Shown here in pieces: positions 25,889 to 32,285 of a stretch of DNA of 34,378 nucleotides (position 1 is its first letter; the number at the start of each line of letters is the position of its first letter). This DNA is from Lachnospiraceae bacterium (lineage in GTDB: Bacteria; Bacillota; Clostridia; Lachnospirales; Lachnospiraceae), in NCBI GenBank assembly GCA_024694625.1, contig JAILJP010000004.1:1-34378 (forward strand), written 5' to 3'. The notes under the pieces are model-generated. The model had not been told where the DNA came from. It saw only the letters and a list, made by a program, of their open reading frames with translations, and did not search any database. The translations under genes were made by a program, and so were the position numbers.

Positions 25889-25926
25889 AAAAATCCCCTG
25901 ATCAGAAGCGATCGGGGGATTTTTTT
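25889..25926 (+). terminator. Strong hairpin terminator or leader attenuator
   Basis: AAAAATCCCCTGATC (25889-25903) pairs with GATCGGGGGATTTTT (25910-25924), with one T-G pair and a 6-base loop, and ends in a T-run to 25926. It terminates the chemoreceptor transcript. The ribosome binding site AAAAGG of the next gene begins only about five bases later, so any mRNA for that gene starting upstream must pass through this hairpin. Confidence 0.92.
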
Positions 25927-25942: not shown

Positions 25943-28516
25943 ATGAAGAAAAATACAGTGGGCATTTTGGCCCATGTGGATGCAGGAAAGACAACTTTAT
26001 CGGAAGCGCTTTTGTATCGTTGCGGTACCATTCGAAAACTGGGGCGGGTTGACCATAAGGACAGTTATTTGGATGGGGAGGAAATCGAACGTGCCAGAGG
26101 TGTTACCGTCTTTTCCAAACAGGCGCGCTTTTTGTATGAAGATATGGAGGTTACCCTGTTGGATACACCGGGGCATGTGGATTTTTCGGCGGAGATGGAA
26201 CGTACCTTAAAGGTGTTGGACTACGCTATTTTAGTGATTAGCGGAACTGACGGAGTGCAAAGCCATACGAAGACACTTTGGAAGCTTTTGGATGAGTATA
26301 AGGTGCCGGTATTTTTGTTTGTAAACAAAATGGATATTTCTCTTCGTAGCAAAGAAGAAATCATTTCGGAATTAAAGGAAGAGTTGTCAGAGGGATGTGT
26401 GGACCTCCATCAGGATGAAGAGGATATTGCCACCTGTCACGAAGACTTATTGGAGATTTATTTGGAAACAGGTCACCTTTCAAGGGAGCAGCTGCGCTTA
26501 GGAGTAACGCAGCGGTTTTTGTTCCCTGTTGTTTTTGGCGCGGCGTTGAAAGAGGATGGTGTGGAGGAACTTTTAGATCATCTTTATACCTATTCCACAG
26601 AGAAAACCTATGAAGATAGCTTTGGGGCCTTAGTTTATAAAATCGATCGGGATAAAAACGGTGAGCGATTGACTCATGTGAAAATCACAGGAGGAAGCAT
26701 TTCTGTAAAGGAACTTCTTTCTCACAAAGATGAGGAGAGAGGCAAAGAAAAAATACAAGGTATTCGCCGTTACAACGGAGAAAAGTTTGAAAGTGTCACC
26801 ACCGTTGACGCAGGAGAAATCTGTACGTTTGTGGGATTGGATAAATCCTATGCCGGAGAAGGCTTCGGAAAGGAAGAGGATGTTTTTGTAACCTATTTGG
26901 AACCGGTCTTATCCTACGAAGTGATTCCGCCGGAAGGGGTAGACGGAGGCAAACTTTATCTTAGTTTGAAAGAACTGGGGGAAGAGGATCCTACATTACA
27001 GTTAGACTATGTGGAAGAGACAAAAGAAATCCGCATTCAGCTTATGGGACCTTTTCAGCTGGAAGTGTTGCAACAGGAAATCAAGCGCCGGTATGGAGTG
27101 CTGGTTACCTTTGGTGTGGGAAAGATTATGTATCGGGAAACCATCTTGGATGAGGTGGAAGGAATCGGTCATTTTGAACCCTTGCGACATTATGCAGAGG
27201 TTCATGTGAAGTTGGAACCCATGGAGCGGGGCGGCGGCATATCGGTGGACAATGTATGCTCTACCGACGTCCTTGGAAAAAACTATCAGCAGCAGGTGTT
27301 ATCCGTTTTGGAACATCGAAGACATGTGGGAGTTCTTACCGGTTCCACCTTAACGGATGTGAAGATTACTCTTCTTTCCGGAAAGAGTCATACCAAGCAC
27401 ACGGAAGGGGGAGATTTTTCTCAAGCCACCCGACGGGCGGTACGACAGGGATTAATGAAGGCTACCAGTGTTTTGCTAGAGCCGTATTATGCCATGGAGC
27501 TTACCATTCCATCCCAAATGGTGGGACGGGCTATGACGGATTTGGACCGTATGGAAGGAAAAATTAATCCGCCGGAAATCCTGGGAGATACCGCTGTTTT
27601 ACGGGGAAAGGTTCCGGTGTCTACTTCCATGGATTATGCAACAGAGGTAGCATCTTATACCGGAGGCTTGGGACAACTTTCCCTTTCGTCCGCAGGATAT
27701 GATATCTGTCATAATGCCGAGGAGATTATCCGTCAAAAAGACTATCGTCCCGAGGAGGATAAGAGACATCCTACCGGCTCAGTATTTTGCTCCGGAGGGG
27801 TGGGATATGTGGTGCCTGCTTCTCAGGTGGAAGAAAAAATGCATCTTCCCTATGCCCTTCATCAAGAGGATGCTCCAAAGGATGAGTTTTATATTCCGCC
27901 CATACAAAAAGAAATTAATGATAAAAAGAACAAAAAAGTGTATGATGGATATGGTGGTTTGACATCAGATTTAGAAGAAATCTTCGTACGGGAATTTGGA
28001 CCGATTCGCAGTCCGATTTCCTACAGCAAACCGGTAGTGCGGGATTACAATCAAAAGGAGTCCAAAGCCTACAAGCCGAGAAAATTTGAAAAGAGAAAAC
28101 GCTACATTCTGGTAGACGGATACAATGTTATTTTTGCATGGGAGTATTTAAATGATTTGGCAAAAATGGATTTGTCCGCGGCCAGAGGAAAGCTTATGGA
28201 TATTTTATGTGACTACCAGGGATATGTGGGAGATGACGTGATTGTTGTTTTCGATGCCTATCGGGTAAAGGGTAATCCAGGAAGTTCAGATAAATATCAC
28301 AATATATATGTGGTGTATACAAAAGAGGCTCAGACAGCGGACGCTTATATAGAGCGGGCTGTTCATGAGATGATACCGAAGCACGATATTACTGTAGTGA
28401 CTTCAGATGGTGCGGAACAGGTGATTGTAGCCGGTGCAGGAGCGCTTCGGATTTCCTCTAGAGAGTTTTATGAAGAAGTAAAGAGGGTTAAATCAGAGGG
28501 GATATTGAACCAGTAG
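25943..28516 (+). CDS. TetM-like ribosomal GTPase fused to Rae1/YacP-type NYN ribonuclease
   Basis: From the ATG at 25943, six bases after AAAAGG, the protein is 857 residues; starts at 25925 (TTG) and 25937 are less likely. Residues 1 to about 640 follow the EF-G/TetM ribosome-protection layout. G1 is AHVDAGKTT (10-18), then RARGVTV, DTPGHVDF, NKMD and a GAALKEDG segment. EF-G-like later domains are GHFEPLRHYAEVHVKLEP, SHTKHTEGGDFSQATRRAVRQG and LLEPYYAMELTIPSQMVGRAMTDLDRMEG. After a charged linker, residues about 721-857 are a NYN domain like Bacillus Rae1/YacP, a ribosome-dependent mRNA A-site endonuclease. Acidic residues D725 (VDGYN), D771 (VVFDAY) and D822 (TSDGAEQ) are conserved. I infer a factor that binds the ribosome by its GTPase part and cuts mRNA. 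Similar proteins are often labelled tetracycline resistance; nothing here supports that. Two nuclease/ATPase genes follow. Confidence 0.9.
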   Translation: MKKNTVGILAHVDAGKTTLSEALLYRCGTIRKLGRVDHKDSYLDGEEIERARGVTVFSKQARFLYEDMEVTLLDTPGHVDFSAEMERTLKVLDYAILVISGTDGVQSHTKTLWKLLDEYKVPVFLFVNKMDISLRSKEEIISELKEELSEGCVDLHQDEEDIATCHEDLLEIYLETGHLSREQLRLGVTQRFLFPVVFGAALKEDGVEELLDHLYTYSTEKTYEDSFGALVYKIDRDKNGERLTHVKITGGSISVKELLSHKDEERGKEKIQGIRRYNGEKFESVTTVDAGEICTFVGLDKSYAGEGFGKEEDVFVTYLEPVLSYEVIPPEGVDGGKLYLSLKELGEEDPTLQLDYVEETKEIRIQLMGPFQLEVLQQEIKRRYGVLVTFGVGKIMYRETILDEVEGIGHFEPLRHYAEVHVKLEPMERGGGISVDNVCSTDVLGKNYQQQVLSVLEHRRHVGVLTGSTLTDVKITLLSGKSHTKHTEGGDFSQATRRAVRQGLMKATSVLLEPYYAMELTIPSQMVGRAMTDLDRMEGKINPPEILGDTAVLRGKVPVSTSMDYATEVASYTGGLGQLSLSSAGYDICHNAEEIIRQKDYRPEEDKRHPTGSVFCSGGVGYVVPASQVEEKMHLPYALHQEDAPKDEFYIPPIQKEINDKKNKKVYDGYGGLTSDLEEIFVREFGPIRSPISYSKPVVRDYNQKESKAYKPRKFEKRKRYILVDGYNVIFAWEYLNDLAKMDLSAARGKLMDILCDYQGYVGDDVIVVFDAYRVKGNPGSSDKYHNIYVVYTKEAQTADAYIERAVHEMIPKHDITVVTSDGAEQVIVAGAGALRISSREFYEEVKRVKSEGILNQ

Positions 28517-28532: not shown

Positions 28533-29615
28533 ATGAAACTGATACATGTGGCAGACTTGCATTTAGATTCCAAAATGGAAAGCAATCTGACTTCGGAAAA
28601 AGCAAGACTTCGTCGGGAAGAATTGTTGGATCGTTTTTGTGAATTGGTGTATTACGCTGAGAAAAACGGAATCAGCGGTATTTTGATTGCCGGAGATTTG
28701 TTTGATAAGACCCATATTCGCAAGGCTGCAAGAAATAGAGTCTTGGATGAAATCAAAGAGCATCCGGATATTACTTTTTTCTATTTACAGGGAAATCATG
28801 ACCGTAGTGATTTCCTTCAGAATGTAAAACCCAAAGACAGTCCCAATCTAAAACTTTTTGATAAGGATCAGTGGATTTCCTATGACTTTGGAGAGGCTGT
28901 AATTACAGGAAGAGAGATTACGCCGGACAATTCCAAAACCTTTGCCATGAATTTGGTTTTGGACCAGGCTAATTGTAATATTGTCATGCTTCACGGTCAG
29001 GAATCGGACTATGAAGGAAAGGATAAAACAGAAATCATTCCCTTAGGGGAACTTCGAGGTAAGCATATTGATTATCTTGCCTTAGGTCATATTCATTCCT
29101 ACAAAAAAGAGCGATTGGATGACCGAGGAGAGTATTGCTACAGTGGTTGCTTGGAGGGAAGAGGCTTTGATGAATGTGGTTCGAAAGGTTTTGTCCTTTT
29201 GGATGTAGAGGATGGCACAGTGACTTCGGAGTTTGTGCCTTTTGCGAAACGCCATTTTCATGAAGTGGTGGCTGACCTTACGGAAGAGGATGAAATGCCC
29301 TCTGTTTTGGCGAAGCTTCGTGAACAGTTAGAAAACATCCCCGAAGAAGATTTTGTAAAGATTGTATTAAACGGATATACCCATGTGGATTTTGATGTAG
29401 ATGTGAATCGAATTCTTAGGGAGTTCGGGGAGAAGTTTTTCTTTGTAAAGGTTTATGACAAATCCACCATAAAGGTACATTACGAAGACTATTTAAACGA
29501 CAAATCTTTAAAGGGTGAGTTTGTTCGTTTAATGGAAAAACAGGAAATGGAAGAAGATAAAAAAGGACTGATTGTAGAAATCGGTATGAAAGCATTAATG
29601 GGGGAGGAATTATAA
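28533..29615 (+). CDS. SbcD/YhaO-like metallophosphoesterase (DNA repair nuclease)
   Basis: This 360-residue protein carries the Mre11/SbcD phosphoesterase motifs in order: DLHLD (8-12), AGDLFDKT, LQGNHDR, MLHGQE and ALGHIHS. All metal ligands are present, so it should be an active Mn-dependent nuclease. A C-terminal region of about 130 residues would contact the ATPase partner. The next gene starts directly at its stop codon (TAA then ATG) and encodes the matching SbcC/Rad50-like ATPase, as in the YhaO-YhaN pair of Bacillus. Such pairs process double-strand breaks and DNA ends. It is 16 bases after the GTPase-NYN gene. Confidence 0.88.
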   Translation: MKLIHVADLHLDSKMESNLTSEKARLRREELLDRFCELVYYAEKNGISGILIAGDLFDKTHIRKAARNRVLDEIKEHPDITFFYLQGNHDRSDFLQNVKPKDSPNLKLFDKDQWISYDFGEAVITGREITPDNSKTFAMNLVLDQANCNIVMLHGQESDYEGKDKTEIIPLGELRGKHIDYLALGHIHSYKKERLDDRGEYCYSGCLEGRGFDECGSKGFVLLDVEDGTVTSEFVPFAKRHFHEVVADLTEEDEMPSVLAKLREQLENIPEEDFVKIVLNGYTHVDFDVDVNRILREFGEKFFFVKVYDKSTIKVHYEDYLNDKSLKGEFVRLMEKQEMEEDKKGLIVEIGMKALMGEEL

Positions 29616-32285
29616 ATGTTACGATTAATCTCCTGTTATGTGACAGGTTTCGGAAGACTAGAAAACTTCGAATTTCAATTTAACGATGGACTGAATACCG
29701 TCTTAGAAGAAAACGGTTGGGGAAAGACAACCTTTTGTGTATTTTTGAAATCCATGTTTTACGGTATGGAGTACAAAAGAGGAAAATCCTTAACGGAACG
29801 AAAGCATTATCTCCCCTGGTCAGGGGCAGTCTATGGCGGAAATCTTGTTTTTGAAAAAGACGACAAGCGTTACCGAATTGAACGAACTTTTGGCGCAAAG
29901 GATAAAGATGATACGTTCTGCCTTATGGATTTGGATACGGAAAAAGAGTCCTTTGATTATACGGAGAACATCGGTGAGGAACTCTTTGAGGTAGATCGGG
30001 AGTCCTTTGAGAAGAGTCTCTTTTCTCCCCAGGAAGAAATTAAAACTTCCATGACGGACAGCTTAAATGCGAAGATGGGTGATTTATCTGCGGCCAAAGA
30101 TGATATGAACAACTTCGATGTGGCCATTGCCAAAATCGAAGAGGCGAAGAAGGAATACTCGCAGAGAAGTCAGGTGAACCCTGGTAAATTAATGCGGGTG
30201 CAAAGCGAGATTTCCCAGTGTAGAGAAATGGTAGAGGTTTTGCCGGTAAAGCTGGAGGCTTATGATCTTCAGGGGAAACTTTTGCAGGACAAAAATCATC
30301 AGCTTTTAAAATTAAAAGAAGAACGTACGAAGATTGCAGACCGTATTGCAGCTCAGAGTAAACGGGAACAGGAAATCGGAGCGCTAAAGGCAAAAAGGGA
30401 AAGTCTGAAAAAAAGCAAAGAGGAACTGGCCCAGTTAGATGACTTTTTTGCAAAAGGGATTCCGGAGGCAGAAGAGATTTCCGATATTCAGGAAAAACAA
30501 AATTCCCTTCATGGAATTTTGGGTAGATTTGAATCCGTGCATTCTTTGTTGCCTTCTAAAGCGGATGAAGGAAAGCTAAATGAAATGTTTCGAGACCATG
30601 AGGTGACGGAAGATCAGCTGGATGCCTGGGATGAACAGGCGCAGCGCATGAAGGAACTTCGGGTACAGGGCGAGCATAATCAGATGCCGGAAGAGGAAAA
30701 GACAAAACTTTCGGAGTTGAAGTATTACTTTTCAAAGAAGGTTCCTTCTGAGGAAGAACTTTCTGCTGTGTCGGAACAGGTGACATCCTTGGTTCGTGCG
30801 GATGCAGAGTTGTCTGTGCGTGAAAAACAGTATCAGACACTTCTTGCAGAAAAAGAAGTTTTGGAAAAAAGTGAAAAGGGAAAAGAAAGAGGCGCCGGTT
30901 TGGTGTGGCTATTTTTCCTTTTAGGCGTGGTTTGTATTGTTGGTGGCGTGGTATTTACCTATTATATTCACGAAGACATCAGTCTTATGGTGGCTACAGC
31001 ATTTTATGTGGCTGGTATCGTTTTGGAACTGGTGGTATTCGTTCAGATGCTCCACCGAAGAACCAGACATACCACGAGACGTCAGGGATTGGATGAGCAG
31101 CTGGCAGAGGCATTGGAAGAATTGGAAGAATCCAGACAGTTACGAGATGACATAAATGACAGCTGTAAGGAATTTTTATCCGGTTATCTGGTAACCCCTA
31201 CAGAAAGTATGCGGGATATGATCCGGGAAATTCAGGACAAGACCTTGCTTTATAACCAGCTTTTGGAAGAGGAGAAAAAATACAACGAGCAAAACTCCGA
31301 AAGCTTGGAAGAGTTGTCGGAACTTCAGCTGAGTATGTATACCGCTCTTTCCCACTATGCTACGGTGAGCAATATGAATTTGTATGAAGATCATTGCGAA
31401 ATGGAATTGTTGCACCGCTTGCATAACGATTACCGAACCTACAAAGAATATAAAGAAAACAAAAAGATAGAAAAAGAGCTTCGGGAACAAAAGGAATTCT
31501 TAGAAGAAGAAATCAATGGATTCTTGGAGCGATTCCCGGTGATTGAAGAGGAAGAAAATCGTCTTACAGGAATTGAACACAATCTTCGCTCTTACCAGCG
31601 CTTGAGTGAACAGGTGGAGGCTTTGGAGCAGGAATTGGAAGCGATGAAAGAGGTTTCCGATTTGCCGGAGGATGAGGCTTCCATAGAGCAGCTTCAGGCA
31701 ACGCAGCAGGAGATGGAAGCTCAGTCGGATTTACTAAACGAGCAGTTGGTCCGGGACAATGAAGAATTAAATCGTATCTCTGAGGAAATTGAAGCTTGTG
31801 AAGATGCCAAGGAACGATTGGAAGGATTGCTGGAAGAGGAATCCGAGATCAAAGAGAAGATTGAAATCTATGAGCTGTCTGCAAAATACTTGCAGCAGGC
31901 GAAGGATAATTTCTTAAGTAAATATATGGGACCTTTGCGAAAGGGATTGCGACATTATTTGTCTATGATATACGATGAGGAATCCAGTTTCCTTTTGGCG
32001 AAAAACTTCTCTTTGGATATGGACTTAAAAGTACATTACAATTTCCAGGGAAGTACAAAAGAAGAAGGGTATTTGTCTGCGGGATATAAAGACTTGGTTG
32101 CTTTTTGTTCTCGATTGGCATTGATCGATGCTTTGTATTTGGAAGAGAAGCCTATACTGATATTGGATGATCCCTTCACAGATTTAGATAATGAAAAGAT
32201 AAAAGAGTCACTTTCTCTTTTAAAAGAAATCGCAAGAGACCGACAGGTGTTATACTTTACCTGTCATAAAAGTAGAATGGTGTAA
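29616..32285 (+). CDS. SbcC/Rad50-like ATPase with two membrane helices (YhaN-like)
   Basis: An 889-residue Rad50/SMC-type ATPase. The N-terminal head has a P-loop of the form ENGWGKTT (residues 32-39), with Glu where the first Gly of the usual motif would be. Two long Glu/Lys/Gln-rich coiled coils follow (about 170-425 and 485-770). The C-terminal head has a YLSAGYKDLVAFCSRLAL signature and Walker B PILILDDPFTDLD (about 846-858). Between the coiled coils, where Rad50 has its zinc hook, are two hydrophobic segments (about 428-451 and 456-480) and no CxxC hook. The molecule is therefore probably tethered to the membrane at the apex, as in YhaN-type proteins. It pairs with the upstream nuclease and ends the operon at a terminator. 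Confidence 0.88.
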   Translation: MLRLISCYVTGFGRLENFEFQFNDGLNTVLEENGWGKTTFCVFLKSMFYGMEYKRGKSLTERKHYLPWSGAVYGGNLVFEKDDKRYRIERTFGAKDKDDTFCLMDLDTEKESFDYTENIGEELFEVDRESFEKSLFSPQEEIKTSMTDSLNAKMGDLSAAKDDMNNFDVAIAKIEEAKKEYSQRSQVNPGKLMRVQSEISQCREMVEVLPVKLEAYDLQGKLLQDKNHQLLKLKEERTKIADRIAAQSKREQEIGALKAKRESLKKSKEELAQLDDFFAKGIPEAEEISDIQEKQNSLHGILGRFESVHSLLPSKADEGKLNEMFRDHEVTEDQLDAWDEQAQRMKELRVQGEHNQMPEEEKTKLSELKYYFSKKVPSEEELSAVSEQVTSLVRADAELSVREKQYQTLLAEKEVLEKSEKGKERGAGLVWLFFLLGVVCIVGGVVFTYYIHEDISLMVATAFYVAGIVLELVVFVQMLHRRTRHTTRRQGLDEQLAEALEELEESRQLRDDINDSCKEFLSGYLVTPTESMRDMIREIQDKTLLYNQLLEEEKKYNEQNSESLEELSELQLSMYTALSHYATVSNMNLYEDHCEMELLHRLHNDYRTYKEYKENKKIEKELREQKEFLEEEINGFLERFPVIEEEENRLTGIEHNLRSYQRLSEQVEALEQELEAMKEVSDLPEDEASIEQLQATQQEMEAQSDLLNEQLVRDNEELNRISEEIEACEDAKERLEGLLEEESEIKEKIEIYELSAKYLQQAKDNFLSKYMGPLRKGLRHYLSMIYDEESSFLLAKNFSLDMDLKVHYNFQGSTKEEGYLSAGYKDLVAFCSRLALIDALYLEEKPILILDDPFTDLDNEKIKESLSLLKEIARDRQVLYFTCHKSRMV

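Follow-up and report, generated by a model that had tools for sequence, protein, structure and literature searches.

A Rae1-type endoribonuclease joined to an EF-G-like GTPase appears to have taken the place of stand-alone YacP in Clostridia

When a translational GTPase and a ribonuclease are encoded as a single chain, is the product a resistance protein with an added domain, a cleavage machine driven by GTP, or a ribosome-targeted form of a known nuclease? The question is raised by a gene of a Lachnospiraceae bacterium, located in a stretch of 34,378 nucleotides of contig JAILJP010000004.1 (assembly GCA_024694625.1), which we refer to as the window. The gene (25943 to 28516, + strand) encodes a protein of 857 residues, in which Pfam profiles delimit a GTPase, a linker, and an NYN domain. 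Its frame is already open at a TTG codon at 25925; because this codon sits inside the T-run of a terminator hairpin (25892 to 25926), the ATG at 25943, which has AAGGA upstream, is the likely start. The architecture has been known since 2015, when Atkinson et al. reported that Tet proteins from ten Clostridiales carry a YacP-NYN domain and speculated on a role in antibiotic resistance (PMC4342817). Those proteins have the same domain architecture and taxonomic range as the window fusion; they were filed in the TetM/TetO-like subfamily, whereas here the GTPase groups apart from Tet-like GTPases and its NYN partner appears to have replaced a separate Rae1. What the present analysis adds is evidence that the GTPase is distinct from TetM, that the fusion arose once, and that it replaced Rae1. 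Our literature search, which covered mainly papers available without subscription, returned no later study of the architecture and no experiment on any fusion.

Our preferred reading, to which we assign a probability of roughly 0.6, is that the fusion is the Rae1/YacP of these lineages, tethered by a flexible leash to a non-Tet, EF-G-like GTPase that would deliver the nuclease to ribosomes. Residues 1 to 637 contain the EF-G series of domains, in agreement with the original prediction of a ribosomal GTPase with all G motifs. The G domain (residues 5 to 217; 25955 to 26593; PF00009 [GTP_EFTU], 9.1e-51) carries AHVDAGKT, DTPGH, and NKMD and is followed by domains II-III (residues 227 to 391; 26621 to 27115; EF-G_D2 weak, EFG_III at residues 320 to 391 with 2e-13), domain IV (residues 393 to 507; 27119 to 27463; EFG_IV, 1.4e-18), and domain V (residues 510 to 591; 27470 to 27715; EFG_C, 1.7e-19). 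D13, K16, H78, K129, and D131 are invariant in 116 fused proteins, and G motifs, catalytic His, and domains II to V, the features of an EF-G/EF-2-type GTPase, are all present. In a model built with AlphaFold2 from 36 fused relatives, residues 1 to 640 and 720 to 856 are folded. A Foldseek search of the PDB with the whole model gave EF-G for the body, and EF-G relatives only among the matches listed.

The C terminus is of the Rae1 type, as the original prediction had it. Residues 722 to 851 (28106 to 28495) match the NYN_YacP endoribonuclease family (PF05991, 5.1e-48) with 163.6 bits against a curated cutoff of 24.6, and a PDB search with this part retrieved only YacP/Rae1 of Bacillus subtilis (5mq8/5mq9, 2.6e-24), to which 56 of 128 aligned residues (44%) are identical. 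The acidic residues singled out beforehand lie where they had been placed, are identical to those of Rae1, and show no loss across 116 fused proteins, the window protein included. The predicted catalytic aspartates D725 (VDGYN; 28115 to 28117) and D771 (VVFDAY; 28253 to 28255), together with D800 (QTAD; 28340 to 28342), are kept in 116 of 116, and catalytic D822 (TSDG; 28406 to 28408) is kept in the 115 that are readable there, one protein running into a contig end before this position. Besides the 640-residue GTPase attached to it and its other location in the genome, the window NYN domain differs from B. subtilis Rae1 in being C-terminally short: it matches profile positions 1 to 132 of 166, with about 33 C-terminal positions absent, and has 19 residues beyond S838 against a median of 42 in the fusions. 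Roughly half of the fusions have the same shortened end, and the segment is complete in many others. In B. subtilis Rae1, an R166P substitution in the same C-terminal region causes loss-of-function behavior in vivo (PMC6613710). The activity of the short fusions may be altered, or contacts elsewhere may replace the missing segment.

The distribution of yacP genes argues that the fused NYN domain has taken over from a separate protein. It had been proposed to survey whether genomes with the fusion lack a stand-alone yacP, and they do: in a class sample of 291 genomes, none of the 103 with a fusion (one of which, G461, has two) encodes a separate NYN_YacP protein above the family cutoff, versus 75 of the 169 genomes devoid of the GTPase (Fisher p about 2e-19, with genomes taken as independent of ancestry). 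The same pattern was seen among the fused genomes of 41 relatives and of 299 phylum genomes, as well as in the complete genome of Hungatella hathewayi DSM 13479 and in seven other named genomes. Second matches that suggested a separate yacP beside the fusion in G464, G528, and G569 were rejected, because each aligns only in part and, at 21 bits, falls under the Pfam cutoff.

Gene order bears on the same event. Stand-alone yacP lies immediately behind rlmB in 36 of 39 loci, and a sigma-factor gene comes next in several. In the window genome, where the order is cysS-mrnC-rlmB-sigma, 4 bp separate rlmB from the sigma gene, so the yacP slot is closed, and the fusion gene is not adjacent to rlmB, the usual though not strictly required context of yacP. 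Eighteen fused genomes, the window genome among them, had both flanks of the slot: 16 show a gap of 4 to 341 bp without NYN, G549 has a 652-bp gap without NYN, and G361 has a 647-bp gap containing a stop-ridden yacP remnant in which the VVFDAYL block is recognizable (L320:2217-2870, between rlmB and the sigma gene). In G392, which belongs to the same genus as G361, yacP is intact in the slot and the GTPase search gave no match. Five further fused genomes showed neither a sigma gene nor an NYN domain in the neighborhood. That the separate yacP is lost or decaying where the fusion is present is as expected if the fused NYN domain does its job. On these sequence comparisons, the fusion has replaced stand-alone rae1/yacP and stands in for the gene behind rlmB.

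The GTPase is present in 122 of the 291 class genomes and fused in 103 of the 122, the fusions spanning about 25 families. Since both genes are absent in 94 of the 291 genomes, the function is dispensable, a point against our preferred reading. In a tree of 69 GTPase sequences, 42 of them fused, the fused GTPases form one clade (99% SH-aLRT) within which a single unfused member is nested, that of plasmid pMP118 of Ligilactobacillus salivarius; the remaining unfused members branch elsewhere, the majority of them in a sister clade. As judged from this tree, the fusion arose once, and the L. salivarius member is a secondary loss of the NYN domain, the single loss seen. The NYN tree is too short to resolve the matter; one clade of fused NYN domains is compatible with it (p-AU 0.21), not demonstrated by it. 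The unfused members, such as LSL_RS10690 of pMP118, lack the NYN domain and share with the fusions an HTxGGDF loop III and a 45-residue C-terminal extension specific to the subfamily (residues 592 to 637; 27716 to 27853), which TetM/TetO and EF-G do not have. Unfused members terminate at the end of this extension, which therefore marks the fusion junction. About seven genomes have an unfused GTPase and no YacP (in one, G564, the gene is partial); the GTPase therefore does not need the nuclease and must also serve some function without it, which again counts against our preferred reading. An association between unfused GTPase and yacP was considered and dropped, their co-occurrence (10 of 17) being not above the background of 75 of 169 (p 0.31). 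On the pMP118 megaplasmid (L221:4529-6920), the unfused gene sits beside an extra rpsN (S14) and a gene for a "putative metal homeostasis protein." In Clostridia bacterium UC5.1-1E11, a fusion is split across three frames (L178:3322-6384), probably through assembly errors.

Between the two folded parts lies a linker of roughly 75 residues (residues 641 to 718; 27863 to 28096). It had been described as conserved-looking, a description that does not hold: its length and sequence vary widely among fusions, and most of it is predicted to be disordered, with AlphaFold2 pLDDT values below 50 at residues 642 to 674 and 685 to 716, the 642-716 stretch being interrupted by a low-confidence helix at residues 675 to 685 (27965 to 27997). 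This short helix is the one motif recognized, DLEEIFVREFG-like in the window protein and ELEEIFARTYG or EIDQIINKTFY elsewhere. A loose pattern for it matches 64 of 115 fused linkers versus 0.06 expected in shuffles, a contrast that is descriptive because the pattern was drawn up after inspection of 36 of the same sequences. Among three genus mates, amino acid identity is 93 to 97% in the NYN domain, about 80% in the GTPase, and 69 to 82% in the linker, and dN within the genus is 0.015 to 0.035 for the NYN domain versus 0.14 to 0.17 for the GTPase; the NYN domain, with the highest identity, is thus the most constrained part of the protein and the one under the strongest purifying selection, in favor of our preferred reading.

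How might such a protein work? EF-G/TetM-type factors place their domain IV in the ribosomal A site. We infer from the known families that the fusion would bind ribosomes, act as an RNase, and cleave in the A site. Binding of the GTPase body at the factor site and the A site, most likely on paused ribosomes with an empty A site, would bring the nuclease to the ribosome. As the A site could hold only one of them at a time, domain IV and the Rae1-type domain would have to act in turn: domain IV would depart, the leashed NYN domain would then move into the A site and cut the codon there, and the truncated complex could be handed to tmRNA-SmpB. SmpB is encoded in the window genome. For B. subtilis Rae1, stalling may raise access to the mRNA (PMC6613710). 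This order of events, like any gating of cleavage by GTP, is plausible but conjectural. If the delivery reading is correct, the A-site ribonuclease of a large group of Clostridia from the gut and elsewhere, with species of Hungatella, Clostridium, Anaerostipes, Dorea, and Butyrivibrio among them, is built into a ribosomal GTPase that databases often label as a tetracycline-resistance protein, and the fusion offers a natural handle on how Rae1-type nucleases find their ribosomes.

A more demanding version, the strong form of the original prediction, couples the two activities, in that GTP hydrolysis would drive entry into the A site or its clearing and would license the cut, in one cycle on stalled ribosomes. 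The invariance of the G motifs and of the catalytic His, the persistence of the joined parts since a single origin in about 25 families, and the flexible leash between them are in its favor. Coupling would need two steps, however, given the single site that domain IV and the NYN domain would share; unfused GTPases of the subfamily are found in genomes without YacP and accompany yacP no more often than background, and the linker is highly variable in length and sequence. To our knowledge, stand-alone Rae1 functions in B. subtilis without such a GTPase partner, which also counts against a cut licensed by GTP. We hold this coupled cycle to be possible but rather unlikely. The specific form in which the GTPase detects a vacant A site and, once GTP is hydrolyzed, yields it to the tethered RNase, as a single-chain, GTP-regulated endonuclease, is a doubtful proposition; if it were true, the fusion would be a bacterial no-go-decay enzyme that combines surveillance and cutting in one protein.

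At the opposite extreme, the two parts could be independent ribosome factors that share a chain with no functional coupling. Each part does occur without the other, and the L. salivarius lineage has dispensed with the NYN domain, but the fusion has been retained across a large clade with that one loss, and the separate yacP has been lost throughout. We consider an uncoupled fusion unlikely.

It is improbable, in our estimation, that the NYN domain processes stable RNA, in rRNA or tRNA maturation, while the GTPase contributes to ribosome assembly or quality control. In relatives, yacP adjoins the rRNA-processing genes mrnC and rlmB, and such a role was an early proposal for NYN domains (cited in PMC4342817); however, the only characterized YacP is Rae1, which cleaves mRNA within the A site of the ribosome (PMC12320835), and Rae1 is also the nearest solved structure.

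There remains the relation of the GTPase to the tetracycline-resistance proteins. The fusion GTPase has the domain order I to V and the G motifs of TetM and TetO and the five-domain fold of EF-G. In an alignment, its identity is about 28% with TetM and TetO, and with EF-G it is about 25 to 30%; loop II is EF-G-like and differs from that of TetM/TetO, and loop III and the C-terminal extension differ from those of both. Loop III of domain IV (residues 480 to 492; 27380 to 27418) reads GKSHTKHTEGGDF, the TetM equivalent in the alignment being GLYYSPVSTPADF; within it, SHTKHTEGGDF has SHTKH where TetM has YYSPV with P509, and H486, G490, and D491 are present in at least 113 of 116 fused proteins. 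P509 of TetM loop III overlaps the drug site (PMC7456112). The TetM variant S508A/P509A/V510A remains active (PMC4750697), and since TetM tolerates such changes, the loop sequence is not decisive against tetracycline protection. The best NCBIfam model for the protein is tet_protect, with a score of 411 versus a cutoff of 775 bits. A subfamily profile covering residues 410 to 640 gives 205 to 421 bits for intact members and at most 138 bits for other EF-G and Tet proteins, and fused and unfused members together form a clade (96%) apart from the Tet-like outgroups L121, L127, and L128, with TetM and TetO themselves compared by alignment. From its sequence, we read the GTPase as a non-Tet, EF-G-like protein, and nothing in it predicts tetracycline protection. 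Hence a tetracycline-resistance protein with an added RNase, as Atkinson et al. (2015) suggested, is very improbable: the EF2 superfamily is shared, tet_protect ranks first, and NCBI names some relatives accordingly, but the low score and identity, the clade apart from Tet-like GTPases, the absence of YYSPV/P509, and the lack of conserved neighbors all stand against it. The warning that such annotation misleads was justified, relatives being named "TetM/TetW/TetO/TetS family...," and if our reading is correct, many genes annotated as "TetM/W/O/S family" in gut genomes probably do not confer resistance. With regard to EF-G itself, canonical fusA was not found in the window genome (an 88%-complete assembly). 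The best EF-G there (C21:13882-15933) falls short of the EF-G cutoff, and its G motifs are altered (GHSGAGKT and DTPGS), like those of EF-G2.

No conserved neighbor emerged from the ORFs around 117 distinct fusions. The hairpin just before the ribosome-binding site of the window fusion, also found in two genus mates, could be the terminator of the upstream gene or an attenuator. An attenuator-like leader was discarded as a family feature, terminators preceding 11 of 116 fusions versus 28 of 373 other genes and thus being not commoner there. A mobile or phage origin was suggested by two "Bacteriophage sp." records from feces, MT835514.1 and MT835563.1, both with a full-length fusion; the one inspected is an UNVERIFIED, unannotated fecal scaffold and possibly bacterial DNA, and the idea was not retained. 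Directly behind the window fusion (28533 to 32285) lie genes for a metallophosphoesterase and an AAA coiled-coil protein, an SbcD/SbcC-like pair; they were rejected as operon partners, since the order recurs in only three other loci.
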